Shown here: piece after piece, positions 2,513 to 10,539 of the stretch
How positions within the stretch are numbered: position 1 is the first letter of the stretch
Layout: each line of letters begins with the position of its first letter
Assembly (NCBI GenBank): GCA_028285145.1
Contig: JANQQC010000047.1
Span: forward strand, 1 to 64,000
DNA length: 64,000 nt
Origin: Hyphomonadaceae bacterium
GTDB lineage: Bacteria > Pseudomonadota > Alphaproteobacteria > Caulobacterales > Hyphomonadaceae
Direction: 5' to 3'
The notes under the pieces: generated by a model
Seen by the model: only the letters and a program-made list of their open reading frames with translations
What the model was told of the DNA's origin: nothing
The model's database searches: none
Translations under genes and position numbers: made by a program

Positions 2513-2540
2513 TAAAAAAGGCCGCCTATCGGCGACCTTT
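2513..2540 (-). terminator. Rho-independent terminator of the SDR-TatA unit
   Basis: On the minus strand the arms AAGGTCGCC and GGCGGCCTT close a GATA loop and run straight into a T tract. It lies 21 bases beyond the stop of the TatA-like gene and ends the leftward unit. Confidence 0.85.
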
Positions 2541-2561
2541 CTGGTTGGTTCGGAGGGTGGA

Positions 2562-2726
2562 TCAAGACTTAGCGTCAAGCAACCCTTCCTCTTCATCCTG
2601 AATGTTTTTCCGAAAGGCCCGGATACCGGAACCCATGTCGGAAAACAGGCGCGGAATGTCTTTGCTCTTGAACAGGATGAGCAGGACGGCGGCAATCAGC
2701 AATAGCTGCGGCAGAGATGGCATCAT
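2562..2726 (-). CDS. Orphan TatA/TatE-like Sec-independent translocase subunit
   Basis: A 54-residue protein with the TatA plan: a very short N-terminus, one hydrophobic helix (about residues 5-19, LPQLLLIAAVLLILF), a proline-containing hinge (SKDIPRL), an amphipathic helix (GSGIRAFRKN) and an acidic tail. The usual FG after the membrane helix is FK here. AGGAGG lies just before the ATG at 2726. The start is 12 bases beyond the stop of a Tat-signal-bearing dehydrogenase on the same strand, so the pair almost certainly forms one unit. No tatB or tatC is in the window. By inference it is a cargo-linked TatA paralogue rather than the main chromosomal one. Confidence 0.8.
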   Translation of the reverse strand: MMPSLPQLLLIAAVLLILFKSKDIPRLFSDMGSGIRAFRKNIQDEEEGLLDAKS

Positions 2727-2738
2727 GGTCTTGTCCTC

Positions 2739-3620
2739 CTAGCGCGTCAGGTAGCCGCCATTGACCCAGAGGGTCTGACCGTTGGTCCACTGGCTGTCAG
2801 GTTTGGCAAGGAACTCAACCAGCGGAACGATGTCTTCCACTTCACCGAGGCGACCTTCGGTAGATAGCCCGGCAGCATAAGCCACAGAGCGCTCATTCTC
2901 TTGGCTGTGGAAAAATGGCGTGTTCACCGGACCAGGCGCGATTGCATTCACTGTGATCCGCTTGTCGCCAAGCTCCTTGGCCAGCATTCGAGTGTATTCC
3001 TCGACCGGGGCCTTGGTGCCGGCATAGATGGCATAGCCCGGGGCTGCGCCGGCCAGGAGCGACGTCCCATTATTGATGATCCGGCCACCCGGGCGCACGC
3101 GGCGCGCCGCTTCGCGCAAGCAATAAAACAGGCCGCGATTGTTGACCGCATCCAAGCGCTCAAACTCTTCATCGGTGAACTCAGCCATGGGCTTCTTGAT
3201 GATTGCGCCGGCATTGTTGACGACGATGTCCACGCCGCCGAATTCGCGCTCAGCTGCATCGAACATGGCCTTAACCACTTTCACATCACCCAGATCACCC
3301 TGGACGAGGGCGGCTCGCTGACCCGCTGCGCGGACGAGGGAGGCGCTTTGCTCCGCCTCATCACGGGTAGAGGCGCGGTGATAGTGGACCACGACGTCGG
3401 CCCCCATCCTGGCCAACGCCGCGGAAAAGGCCCGGCCCATATTGGCCCGCGCACCGGTTACGATGGCGACCTTGCCGGCCAGCGGCCTGGACGTGGCGGC
3501 ACCGGACTGGGCCGTGGCCGAGGCAGCCCCTACCGAGCCTGCTGCGGCGGCTGCGGCGGCGCCCATGCCGATCATGCGCAGAGCACCGCGGCGGTTCAGG
3601 TCTGATGTCTCGTTCGTCAT
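2739..3620 (-). CDS. Tat-exported short-chain dehydrogenase/reductase
   Basis: A 293-residue FabG-like SDR with an N-terminal extension of about 45 residues that is a twin-arginine signal: NRRGALRMIG, then an alanine-rich hydrophobic stretch and ASATAQ as a likely cleavage site. The cofactor loop is TGARANMG (the middle glycine is Asn), followed by NNAGA, a Ser in NNGTSL and the catalytic YAGTK (YxxxK). SDRs are normally cytoplasmic; Tat would export it folded with NAD(P) bound, as for Zymomonas glucose-fructose oxidoreductase. The substrate is unknown. It is followed by an orphan TatA-like gene, and a LysR regulator lies upstream on the same strand. Confidence 0.88.
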   Translation of the reverse strand: MTNETSDLNRRGALRMIGMGAAAAAAAGSVGAASATAQSGAATSRPLAGKVAIVTGARANMGRAFSAALARMGADVVVHYHRASTRDEAEQSASLVRAAGQRAALVQGDLGDVKVVKAMFDAAEREFGGVDIVVNNAGAIIKKPMAEFTDEEFERLDAVNNRGLFYCLREAARRVRPGGRIINNGTSLLAGAAPGYAIYAGTKAPVEEYTRMLAKELGDKRITVNAIAPGPVNTPFFHSQENERSVAYAAGLSTEGRLGEVEDIVPLVEFLAKPDSQWTNGQTLWVNGGYLTR

Positions 3621-3755: not shown

Positions 3756-4652
3756 CTATTGCAGGGAGCCGCTCGCTTTGAAGGTTTCTGCCGCCAGATC
3801 AATGAATCGGCGGATCTTGGCCGGTACGAAAACGCTTGGCGCATAAAGCGCGTGAACAGGATAAGCCGCGATCGACCAGTCCGGCAGGATCGGCACGACG
3901 CTGCCATTCCTGAGTTCATCTTCGAACGCCCAGACCGGCCCCTTGTGGATGCCCCGCCCTGCCACCACCAACGCCCGGATCGCGCTCACGCTATTGGCGC
4001 TGAAGTGCCCATGAGCCGTGATTGTCTCGGGCTTACCGTCTTTCTCCAACGTGATCTCCACCTGGCGGTCGCCCGGCCGGTAATGGATGAAATCGTGCGC
4101 CTCGAGGTCGCGAGCAGTCGTGATCGGATCATGCCGCTCGAGATAGCTGGGCGCTACGACGAGGACGCGTGGCACAAAGGCGAGGCGCTTGGCGATGAGG
4201 CTGGAATCCTCAAGCCGGCCAATGCGTATGGCGACGTCGAGCCCCTGGCCGATAAGGTCCGAAAAAGCGCTACCGAGCCGTAGATCAATCGTCAGATCAG
4301 GCGCTTCATCCTGCAGCCTGGCCAAGATCGGCGCGACGAATTTCGCACCAAAATCGACCGGCGCGGTTACTCTGAGCCGACCAGACGGCTGGTCCACGAG
4401 CCCAGTGACATCAGCCTCCAAGGCGGTCTGCTCATCAACGATCCGCCGCATACCGTCATAATAGTTCTGGCCTGCCTCAGTCGGCGTCGAGCGCTTGGTA
4501 GAGCGCTCCAGCAGCTTCACGCCAAGACGCGCCTCAAGAGCCGATATCCGCCGACTCACCGCCGAAGGATCAGAGCCAATCTGCTCTGCCGCCGCCTTAA
4601 GGCTACCAGCTTCTACGACTCGAAGGAAAAGCTGCTCATTTGTGTCGGCCAT
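3756..4652 (-). CDS. LysR-family transcriptional regulator
   Basis: A 298-residue regulator. The N-terminal winged helix-turn-helix (about residues 1-60) contains AGSLKAAAEQIGSDPSAVSR and LEARLGVKLLERST. The remainder is a periplasmic-binding-protein-like effector domain beginning near GRLRVTAPVDFG, close to the CrgA/DsdC-like subgroup that often governs neighbouring oxidoreductases. It lies 135 bases upstream of the Tat-exported SDR and reads the same way, so it may control that gene and itself. The effector is unknown. Confidence 0.9.
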   Translation of the reverse strand: MADTNEQLFLRVVEAGSLKAAAEQIGSDPSAVSRRISALEARLGVKLLERSTKRSTPTEAGQNYYDGMRRIVDEQTALEADVTGLVDQPSGRLRVTAPVDFGAKFVAPILARLQDEAPDLTIDLRLGSAFSDLIGQGLDVAIRIGRLEDSSLIAKRLAFVPRVLVVAPSYLERHDPITTARDLEAHDFIHYRPGDRQVEITLEKDGKPETITAHGHFSANSVSAIRALVVAGRGIHKGPVWAFEDELRNGSVVPILPDWSIAAYPVHALYAPSVFVPAKIRRFIDLAAETFKASGSLQ

Positions 4653-7444: not shown

Positions 7445-8722
7445 TCAGATGCGGACATGGGTGCGCGGCAGGATCATCTTCCATTGCACCCCAGCCGGGT
7501 CGAAGATCAGATCTGCTGATGCGCCCATGAAGGCGGGCGCGATCATGGTCAGCACGTCCGTTCCGAAGCCCTGATGCAGCGGAGCCTCCACGATCGGCCC
7601 CTCGCGTTCCGCCCAGTGGATATACCAGTCCGCCGCATCATTTGGGTTCTGGCCCCAGCTGATCTGGACCTTGCCCTCATCATTGCTGAGCGCACCGTAT
7701 TTGAGCGCGTTGGTGGCCAGCTCGAACACGGCAAGACCGATTCCCTGGACAGCATGGTTAGACACTTGGATGTCAGGGCCTTCGATCAGGATGCGACCGC
7801 TTCGATCCGTCGCGAAAGGTGCCATTTGCTGAGATACGACCTCGCGGATGGAGGCCGAAGAGACTGCATCCGACAGCATCAGGTCATTCGATCGGGCAAT
7901 AGCCTGCATGCGATCAGCCAGGCGTTCGCTGAACTCCTGCACCGAATCCACGGTTGGGACCATCAATTCGGCCACGGACTGGATCACGGTGAGAAGGTTC
8001 TTGGACCGGTGGGCCAGCTCGCGTGACAGGTGTTCGCGAGTTTGCTCGGCAGCTTTTCGCTCCGAGATGTCATTCACGATTGAGATGAAGTGACTGATTT
8101 GGCCGTCGGACTTTCGCTGAGCCGCGACGGTGAGGTTCGCCCAGACAACATGACCGGACTTGTTGATGTAACGCTTGTCCATCGAATAGGAGCGAATATC
8201 GCCAGCCACCAGCGCGTTCAGCAAATCGAGGTCGGCCTCGAGGTCGTCAGGATGGGTGATGTCCTGAAACGTCATCTGCATGAACTCGTCGCGCGTGTAG
8301 CCAAGCGTGGCGCAGATCGCATCATTGACCCGAAGCCAGCTCCCATCTTCACCGACATGGGCGATCCCGACATTGGCGTTTTCGAAGGTTGCCCGAAACA
8401 GGGCTTCATCGGCGCGAAGTTTGGCAATTGAGATCTGCTGGTCATCCTCGCCGGAGAGCCGAACCAGCAGATATCCTGCATCGGGCTCAGCCGGAACAAA
8501 GGTTTCAACTGGAACTTTCCTGCCACCCGGAAGAATGAGCGCGCTGCCATCGGCAATCTCAAGGCTTCGCGGCATTTCCCGAAAGTGCGATTTCAGCCAA
8601 TCCGCGGCCTGGTCGTTGAACTGAATCAAATGAGACGTCTCGGGCGCAATGGCGATGGCCTGCCCCGGCGTCTGAGACAGGATGTTTGCAAGCTTGCGGC
8701 GCAAACCAGCGTTTTCAGGCAT
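7445..8722 (-). CDS. PAS-domain HWE-family sensor histidine kinase
   Basis: A 425-residue soluble kinase. An N-terminal region of about 100 residues is unassigned. A PAS domain spans about 103-222 (FRATFENANVGIAHVGEDG through VNDISERK). The phosphoacceptor is in ELAHRSKNLLTVIQ (His238). The HWE-type ATPase has an N box ELATNALKYGALS and the glycine box EREGPIVEAPLHQGFG. There is no membrane segment, so the signal is probably cytoplasmic. Its position beside ecfG, nepR and phyR suggests that it phosphorylates PhyR (a PhyK/LovK-like role). That is inference from linkage and family. Confidence 0.9.
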   Translation of the reverse strand: MPENAGLRRKLANILSQTPGQAIAIAPETSHLIQFNDQAADWLKSHFREMPRSLEIADGSALILPGGRKVPVETFVPAEPDAGYLLVRLSGEDDQQISIAKLRADEALFRATFENANVGIAHVGEDGSWLRVNDAICATLGYTRDEFMQMTFQDITHPDDLEADLDLLNALVAGDIRSYSMDKRYINKSGHVVWANLTVAAQRKSDGQISHFISIVNDISERKAAEQTREHLSRELAHRSKNLLTVIQSVAELMVPTVDSVQEFSERLADRMQAIARSNDLMLSDAVSSASIREVVSQQMAPFATDRSGRILIEGPDIQVSNHAVQGIGLAVFELATNALKYGALSNDEGKVQISWGQNPNDAADWYIHWAEREGPIVEAPLHQGFGTDVLTMIAPAFMGASADLIFDPAGVQWKMILPRTHVRI

Positions 8723-8771
8723 TCAGCTCAACCCAGACTAACCATCCAGGAGACCGTGATGTGATTCGCGC

Positions 8772-9353
8772 TTAGGCTGCTACGTCTCCACGACCGCAGA
8801 GCTGCTCAATTTCCTGAAGCAGGCCTTCGAAATCTGAGGCTCCTTCGGCTTCAGGCGCGGCTTCCGTGCCTTCCATAGACTCCATAACCCGCTTACGGGC
8901 GCGATTCACGCGGCTCTTGATCGTGCCAGCCGCGCAATTGCAGATCTCACCGGCCTCTTCATAGGTAAAGCCGCCGGCCACGACGAGAACGAAGGCGTCA
9001 CGTTGATCGCGCGACAGGACATCCAGCGCACGAATCGCGATTCCCGCGTCTGCAATATGGTGCTGCACAGCATCGACGAACATACCAGACATCAATGGCT
9101 CAACATCCGTGTCGACGAGACGCCAGTTCTTGCGCTTGTGCTGGTAGAATTCGTTCCGCAGGATCTGGAACAACCAGGGACGAAGCGGCCGGCTCCGATC
9201 ATACTGGTCGATCCGGGCCCACGCCTTCAGGCAGGTATCTTGTACGAGATCGTCTGCCAGTATGTGCTGCTTGCAGAGGCTGCGCGCGAACGCGCGAAGA
9301 TCAGGCACGAGGGCCTCCAGTTCATCAGCAAAGCACCAGTCATCCGCGCTCAT
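8772..9353 (-). CDS. ecfG: EcfG-type general stress response sigma factor
   Basis: A 193-residue ECF sigma factor. Region 2 includes LRAFARSLCKQHILADDLVQD and PLRPWLFQILRNEFY; region 4 has the helix-turn-helix FTYEEAGEICNCAAGTIKSR. The acidic C-terminal tail is typical of the family. The ATG at 9353 overlaps the nepR stop in an ATGA, so the two are translationally coupled. It directs RNA polymerase to stress promoters once NepR is removed by phosphorylated PhyR. Confidence 0.93.
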   Translation of the reverse strand: MSADDWCFADELEALVPDLRAFARSLCKQHILADDLVQDTCLKAWARIDQYDRSRPLRPWLFQILRNEFYQHKRKNWRLVDTDVEPLMSGMFVDAVQHHIADAGIAIRALDVLSRDQRDAFVLVVAGGFTYEEAGEICNCAAGTIKSRVNRARKRVMESMEGTEAAPEAEGASDFEGLLQEIEQLCGRGDVAA

Positions 9354-9535
9354 GACTGCTTCTTCGCTTTCTCCGCCTGTCGAATGCGGTTGATCGTGTC
9401 GAGCAGGCGCTGAGGCACCTCCTCCTCCTTCACGTCCTGATACTTTTCCCTGAGCGCCTTGCCCAGCGGCTTCTCCCGCATCCACTCGGATGGCTTGCGC
9501 ACATTGCTTTTCTTTGGAGGATGGGCGTCTGCCAT
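9350..9535 (-). CDS. nepR: NepR anti-sigma factor
   Basis: A 61-residue protein with the conserved NepR core LGKALREKYQDVKEEEVPQR and then LLDTINRIRQAE, flanked by charged, probably disordered ends. NepR holds EcfG inactive in unstressed cells and moves to the sigma-like domain of phosphorylated PhyR under stress. It is the first gene of the leftward nepR-ecfG unit and is divergent from phyR. Its stop overlaps the ecfG start. Confidence 0.93.
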   Translation of the reverse strand: MADAHPPKKSNVRKPSEWMREKPLGKALREKYQDVKEEEVPQRLLDTINRIRQAEKAKKQS

Positions 9536-9683
9536 CCGCGGTTGCTAACAGAGCAATCTTCTCTTCTTCAAGCACTTTCCCCACCTCGTCTGCAGAGCTG
9601 CAATTCGACTGCATTTGACCTGCAGACGCTCTAATCAACTTTGGGTATACGCCAACTACATTAAGTGATTCATAAGACGTGCC

Positions 9684-9715
9684 GGAAATTGTACAGTCTT
9701 AATGTTCGCTGTTCC
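9684..9715. promoter_or_regulatory. Possible divergent EcfG-dependent promoters
   Basis: The phyR-nepR spacer contains GGAAA at 9684-9688 on the plus strand, followed 15 bases later by GTT. The minus strand has a perfect GGAAC (9715 down to 9711). The EcfG consensus is GGAAC, 16-17 bases, then CGTT, so the elements are suggestive but spacing and -10 boxes are imperfect in both directions. Autoregulation of this locus by EcfG is usual in relatives. Confidence 0.3.
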
Positions 9716-9744
9716 TCTGACGACTGACTAATTTGGAAAACTTC

Positions 9745-10539
9745 ATGAGCATTGCCGACGCAATTGAAAGTCATCTGCCCAAACTGCGTCGCTACGCCCG
9801 CGCCATTACAGGATCCACCAAGGCAGGCGATGACGCCGTCATAACAGCCATTGAAGGACTCGATCTGACGGAGGTGCCAGAGCGCGCCGATCTCGCCCTT
9901 TTCGCTGCCCTAGATAAGACCCTGCAAGACGTCTTCGATGACACGGCCGCCCAAAGCAGCGAGGACGACCCGCTGAGCAGCCTTGGCCTGCCTGAGCGGC
10001 GTGCGCTTCTCCTTTCGGCGGTGGAAGAATTCTCGACGCCGGACGTCGCGACGATCATGGGAACCTATGAGGAGCAGGTAGACGCTTATCTCGCCGACAG
10101 TGAGAACAAGCTGATTCAGGATCTTGCTACGGACGTCCTGATCATTGAGGACGAGCCGCTTATCGCCGCCAATCTGTCGCGCCTTGTACTTGCGCTGGGC
10201 CACACGGTCGTTGGCGTGGCGCAGACCATGGACGAGGCGGTCCAGCTGGGCTCCGAACACCGTCCAGCTCTCATCCTCAGCGATGTGAAGCTCGCCGATG
10301 AGTCTCTCGGCTATGACGCCGTCGCCAAGATCGAAGCGTTTTATTCGCCGACGACGATCTACATCACTGCCTACCCTGAGCAGCTGCTCCAGGGCGCGGA
10401 AACTGAACCGGCCTACCTTATCCCGAAACCCTTCAAACCATCTTACGTCAAAGCCGTCATCGAACAGGCGCTGCTGTCTGTTTCCAAAACCGGCAATGCG
10501 CAAAAAGAAATGCCGGCGGAAGTCCGCCGGCAAAGTTGA
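9745..10539 (+). CDS. phyR: PhyR anti-anti-sigma response regulator
   Basis: A 264-residue regulator. Residues 1-125 form an EcfG-like sigma mimic (IADAIESHLPKLRRYARAIT at the start) and the rest is a receiver domain (VLIIEDEPLIAANLSRL, phospho-acceptor Asp180 in LILSDVKLAD, lysine in YLIPKPF). Phosphorylation exposes the sigma-like part, which then captures NepR and frees EcfG. The ATG at 9745 is chosen over an in-frame TTG at 9733 because family homology starts at MSIADAI. It is divergent from nepR-ecfG. Confidence 0.95.
   Translation: MSIADAIESHLPKLRRYARAITGSTKAGDDAVITAIEGLDLTEVPERADLALFAALDKTLQDVFDDTAAQSSEDDPLSSLGLPERRALLLSAVEEFSTPDVATIMGTYEEQVDAYLADSENKLIQDLATDVLIIEDEPLIAANLSRLVLALGHTVVGVAQTMDEAVQLGSEHRPALILSDVKLADESLGYDAVAKIEAFYSPTTIYITAYPEQLLQGAETEPAYLIPKPFKPSYVKAVIEQALLSVSKTGNAQKEMPAEVRRQS
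10511..10532. terminator. Perfect hairpin at the phyR 3' end
   Basis: TGCCGGCGGA and TCCGCCGGCA are perfect 10-base arms around AG and overlap the last codons of phyR. There is no T tract after it, so it may act in RNA stability or as a rho-assisted stop. A second small inverted repeat (GAAACC/GGTTTC) follows at 10547-10564. Confidence 0.4.

Follow-up and report, generated by a model that had tools for sequence, protein, structure and literature searches.

Additional TatA-type genes beside a Tat cargo are already known, and in this respect the finding described here is a modest one. The nap operon of Campylobacter jejuni ends with tatA2 (cj0786), which encodes a protein of 57 amino acids and occurs in few species only. 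A tatA2 deletion still left half of the NapA activity and had effects on FdhA and TorA as well; in C. lari and C. upsaliensis, TatA2 has no hinge glycine (PMC4148689). A tatE gene in the nos cluster of Pseudomonas stutzeri was reported to be essential for denitrification (Heikkila 2001, cited in PMC4148689). Furthermore, E. coli possesses TatE, a short TatA paralogue which is encoded away from tatABC (PMC5777986). With regard to the cargo, GFOR of Zymomonas is described as a NADP-loaded oxidoreductase which is exported by the Tat system (Halbig 1999, cited in PMC7317946).

The locus compared here with these systems is located in a stretch of 64,000 nucleotides from a Hyphomonadaceae bacterium (contig JANQQC010000047.1; hereafter the window). 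It comprises a gene for a short-chain dehydrogenase (SDR) with a predicted Tat signal, followed by a small gene of the TatA/E type. SDRs are cytoplasmic as a rule. Like tatA2 of Campylobacter, the small gene encodes a short extra TatA (54 in comparison to 57 amino acids), is located distal to a Tat cargo and lies apart from the main tatA. In Campylobacter, however, NapA is the cargo and is accompanied by the chaperone NapD; Q8 and F39, which the small protein retains, are both missing from TatA2 of C. jejuni; and tatA2 is conserved in several species, whereas the pair of the window was found in one genome. The E. coli TatE, which shares its short length and its position away from tatABC with the small protein, possesses the motif E3xxxxK8 (or E2/K8), whereas the window protein has no N-terminal charge and a Q at position 7 (PMC5777986). 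According to its description, tatE of P. stutzeri is likewise an additional gene of the TatA type in the gene cluster of a single Tat cargo, but this cargo is a metalloenzyme and not an SDR. As proposed for the SDR, GFOR as described in the citing paper is a NAD(P)-dependent oxidoreductase exported in folded form with its cofactor; it belongs, however, to the Gfo/Idh/MocA family. We know of no extra TatA for GFOR.

Organization of the locus

The elements reported by the earlier note, namely an SDR with a twin-arginine signal, a gap of 12 bases, a TatA-type protein of 54 residues behind AGGAGG and a terminator, were all confirmed (Table 1). The SDR and the small tatA would be co-transcribed in one unit. 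The frame of the small tatA is intact, with a strong Shine-Dalgarno sequence and a coding-like GC3, and its GC content is 0.52 in comparison to 0.64 for the SDR gene.

Table 1. Features of the SDR-tatA locus (positions in the window).
Feature	Positions	Strand	Remarks
Intrinsic-terminator-like hairpin with T-run	2515..2542	-	stem of 12 pairs; closes the unit
Orphan TatA/E-type gene	2562..2726	-	54 aa; PF02416 match; hinge FG changed to FK
SDR stop TAG (2739-2741) overlapping the Shine-Dalgarno sequence AGGAGG (TAGGAGG)	2727..2741	-	gap of exactly 12 bases to the tatA ATG
SDR gene	2739..3620	-	293 aa; N-terminal twin-arginine signal; classical SDR (adh_short_C2)
Region coding for Tat signal peptide and linker (MTNETSDLNRRGALRMIGMGAAAAAAAGSVGAASATAQSGAATSR)	3486..3620	-	direct reading
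LysR-type regulator gene	3756..4652	-	same direction as SDR; conserved neighbour of the SDR family

LysR proteins with 45-63% identity to that of the window adjoin the SDR at six related loci (L110, L039, L045, L042, L037 and L035), weaker LysR matches were found in L043 and L111, and annotated LysR genes adjoin the SDR of the plasmid relatives H1 and H2. The orientation of LysR and SDR is usually divergent in these relatives and co-directional in the window. Since LysR is conserved beside the SDR, control of the window SDR by this regulator, which had been suggested before, is a reasonable inference. In addition, SnoaL_4-type proteins come after the SDR in L039, where the SDR carries a Tat signal, and in L145, a cytoplasmic sister, which suggests that the association of LysR, SDR and SnoaL predates the Tat signal. 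Elsewhere in the window (7445-10539), a cluster resembling the alphaproteobacterial general stress response was observed, with a sensor kinase, an ECF sigma factor, a NepR-like small ORF (9350-9535) and a PhyR-like regulator.

The SDR and its predicted Tat signal

The N-terminus of the SDR (MTNETSDLNRRGALRMIGMGAAAAAAAGSVGAASATAQ), as read directly, shows RR, then an Ala-rich hydrophobic segment and, between ATA and Q, a plausible cleavage site. The catalytic domain starts near residue 45. The protein matched adh_short_C2 in Pfam (PF13561, 8e-51), and with the motifs TGARANMG, NNAG and YAGTK all present it is a classical SDR, in which Asn replaces the second Gly of TGxxxGxG. The best family model was of the PRK12744 type (NF009385; 254 bits, under the cut-off of 296), and among solved structures the catalytic domain was most closely related to PDB 3ksu and 5thk; these matches start at residues 44-46 of the SDR, past the signal region.

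The background of Tat cargoes was estimated within the window, where the SDR was the sole protein with a convincing Tat signal among 65 crudely called genes. From this number, the chance that a TatA gene lies directly behind a Tat cargo is about 1-3%, which is a mild argument for a link and leaves room for a cargo-linked role. An orphan TatA beside one cargo, which the earlier note had called uncommon, is not without precedent, as the nap genes of Campylobacter and, as cited in the same paper, the nos genes of P. stutzeri illustrate (PMC4148689).

A clade of SDRs with Tat signals

Twelve close orthologs of the SDR were detected in genome contigs, and a thirteenth (L142) came from the family to which the Litoreibacter genome belongs. 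RR and a hydrophobic region occur at the equivalent place in all 13, and hence in 14/14 members if the window SDR is included, while the rest of the N-terminus diverges. One ortholog (L038) had been labelled 'cyto' by the pattern, yet its sequence reads PSRRHAIATLGRAGLGAAALAATSA, so that RR is present there too. In a maximum-likelihood tree of the catalytic domain the 14 proteins form one clade with a support of 100/99, which extends over Alpha-, Beta- and Gammaproteobacteria and one Bdellovibrionota genome. The neighbouring SDRs at 44-53% identity (L110, L111, L145, L146 and L147) lack a signal of this kind in front of the catalytic domain, and these sister proteins are predicted to be cytoplasmic. 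One Litoreibacter genome (G427) contains two Tat-signal SDRs of the clade (L039 and L045) together with a cytoplasmic sister (L145).

The proposal that the SDR is a Tat cargo is well supported by these sequence comparisons, as RR is present throughout the clade and absent from the sister clades. A single gain of the Tat signal and its subsequent spread by transfer would fit this distribution best. It is very improbable that the RR segment is a non-working signal and that the SDR remains in the cytoplasm. The motif does read NRRGALR and not SRRxFLK, and no experiment on any member of the clade was found in the literature searched; however, RR and the hydrophobic region have been kept over two phyla in an otherwise diverging N-terminus, and tatABC is present. 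In comparison to the pairing with TatA, this putative clade of Tat-exported SDRs is the sturdier finding.

The tatABC locus and further TatA genes

An ordinary and intact scpA-scpB-tatA-tatB-tatC locus was detected on another contig of the same genome (tatABC, G000:C67:111965-113299). The small protein is therefore an additional, orphan TatA, as the earlier note had assumed, and cannot be the sole TatA of this genome. Across 61 genomes from the family to which the window belongs, all PF02416 matches were close to TatC but three: the small tatA of the window, a fragment at a contig edge in G706 and one match in G708, an incomplete genome in which TatC was not found. The fragment in G706 (L128, G706:C203, near position 390; MFGLSFWHLLIIGVVVFLLFGGRIFNLMGAAGKSLRTGEG...) is a truncated TatA-like ORF apart from tatC and stands upstream of a TonB-dependent-receptor-like ORF. 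When orphan TatAs of the same kind were sought elsewhere in the family, only this fragment came up.

PF02416 was searched in 11 genomes that bear an ortholog of the SDR. Ten of them gave two matches, taken to be tatA and tatB, and the remaining one, the MAG of L033, gave none; a third match was never found.

The small TatA/E-type protein

The small protein matched PF02416 with E=3.1e-8 and 33.2 bits (cut-off 21). The best NCBIfam model was TIGR01411 (tatAE), with 43 bits under the cut-off of 53.9. When aligned with ten canonical TatA proteins, the small protein retains F19, D30, G34, F38 and the polar Q7; Q7 and F38 correspond to the functional residues Q8 and F39 in E. coli numbering. At the hinge, the small protein has FK, whereas the other ten rows have G, and it departs at two further nearly invariant positions. 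The FG hinge is no absolute feature of TatA proteins, since the tatA2 products of both C. lari and C. upsaliensis lack it too (PMC4148689).

In an AlphaFold2 model (mean pLDDT 79), a membrane helix of 15 residues (5-19) is followed by a break and a second helix (23-52), and the predicted protein would thus have the transmembrane helix, hinge and amphipathic helix of TatA/E. The profile of the alignment, whose rows are mostly homologs and not the small protein, matched the TatA structures 2lzr and 2mn7, and a Foldseek search with the very small model itself gave no match. The N-terminus MMPSLPQLLL carries no charge and lacks the TatE motif E3xxxxK8 or E2xxxxxK8, which rules out the enterobacterial TatE type (motif: PMC5777986).

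The small protein is up to 49-53% identical over about 45 residues to alphaproteobacterial TatAs of the tatABC type, in comparison to 36% to the TatA of its own genome. This hints at acquisition rather than recent duplication, and 54 residues are too few for a proof. Its closest TatA relatives in the class are nearly all encoded within tatABC, and no plasmid copies were found.

Occurrence of the SDR-TatA pair

The earlier note had proposed to search genomes for the pair and had regarded a lack of conservation in relatives as its refutation. No TatA was found behind the SDR orthologs, neither in six frames within 600 bases of 12 of them nor in three frames within 400 bases of the thirteenth, and blastp of every ORF in 12 of the orthologous loci (flanks up to 4 kb) against the small protein gave no match there. 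Further pairs were also absent from samples of 385 genomes at the class, 299 at the order and 388 at the phylum level and from 296 genomes of the Litoreibacter family. The adjacency is thus kept in 0/13 orthologs, and the pair is known from the window genome alone. On the note's own terms, the claim of a conserved unit is refuted.

The nearest ortholog (L033) is 88% identical in the mature protein, and the DNA similarity in blastn stops at the SDR stop codon. A TatA remnant behind this SDR (MTPSGTQLVLLG) was considered and rejected, as the alignment showed no convincing similarity past the stop codon. The gene downstream in L033 (from about 5030 on) encodes an S-Me-THD (DUF917) protein with an RR signal of its own, whose start, MLGRRQFLGGAAISLGALG, is Tat-signal-like. 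In an empty-site comparison, the flanks of the locus were not syntenic in three relatives.

Since the pair is absent at 13 orthologs and no further TatA copy was found in the 11 genomes searched, a dedicated TatA is not needed for an SDR cargo of this type, and the view that the small protein is the SDR's own subunit could not be upheld.

Putative function of the small protein

It is probable that the housekeeping TatABC exports the SDR and that the small protein, co-expressed with it, is a TatE-like addition specific to this lineage, which would at most supplement the pool of TatA. The SDR clade, which is small and widely scattered, would have acquired its twin-arginine signal once, and the ordinary TatABC would send the enzyme to the periplasm in folded form, presumably with NAD(P) bound. 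In the window genome alone, a diverged TatA/E-type gene would have come to lie behind the SDR in the same transcription unit; its product would most likely act as an auxiliary, entering or enlarging the housekeeping pool of TatA upon expression of the SDR. For the export of cargoes of the SDR type this product would not be required, and it is probably not exclusive to the SDR.

This reading is supported by the Tat signals in all 14 members, the TatA-free neighbourhoods of the 13 orthologs, the intact tatABC of the genome, the at most two PF02416 matches per searched genome, the end of similarity at the SDR stop, the residues kept in the small protein (F19, D30, G34, F38 and Q7) and the precedents of Campylobacter tatA2 (PMC4148689) and of GFOR as cited in PMC7317946. 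The restriction of the pair to one genome, which leaves the functioning of the small protein without comparative backing, and the loss of the hinge glycine and of two other near-invariant positions speak against it.

The same features could indicate a TatA gene which, after transfer or an old duplication, landed behind the SDR and is now drifting with little or no function. The single occurrence, the similarity ending at the SDR stop codon, the three changed columns and the lower GC content would agree with this, and the truncated gene in G706 indicates that such fragments occur. It is nevertheless unlikely in view of the intact frame, the strong Shine-Dalgarno sequence, the coding-like GC3 and the retention of F38, D30 and G34; moreover, TatA2 is without the hinge glycine in some Campylobacter species as well (PMC4148689).

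Conversely, the small TatA might be a dedicated adaptor which fits the pore or the membrane-thinning step to the SDR, with the FK hinge and an altered amphipathic helix as adaptations. The tight translational layout (12-bp gap, overlapping stop and Shine-Dalgarno sequence, shared terminator) and the low chance of an adjacency to a Tat cargo point in this direction, and the reported essentiality of tatE for denitrification in P. stutzeri (Heikkila 2001, cited in PMC4148689) leaves room for a dedicated role. Such an adaptor is nonetheless doubtful, as 13 orthologous Tat-SDRs manage without it and TatA2 of Campylobacter, the closest analogue to have been studied, is not specific for one cargo (PMC4148689). 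A young, cargo-specialised Tat system, in which a TatA paralogue with a Lys hinge was captured into the SDR operon and tuned to the SDR while the other clade members use the general TatA, appears rather improbable.

Implications

The comparison defines a clade of SDRs whose export together with the nucleotide cofactor is probable; the literature searched yielded no study of such enzymes. This raises the testable question from which source a periplasmic SDR would obtain NAD(P)H, or whether the bound cofactor would be recycled in the manner of GFOR. Furthermore, as a TatA gene is linked to this cargo in one member of the clade and not in the others, a natural comparison is available for the question whether TatA paralogues are ever cargo-specific.
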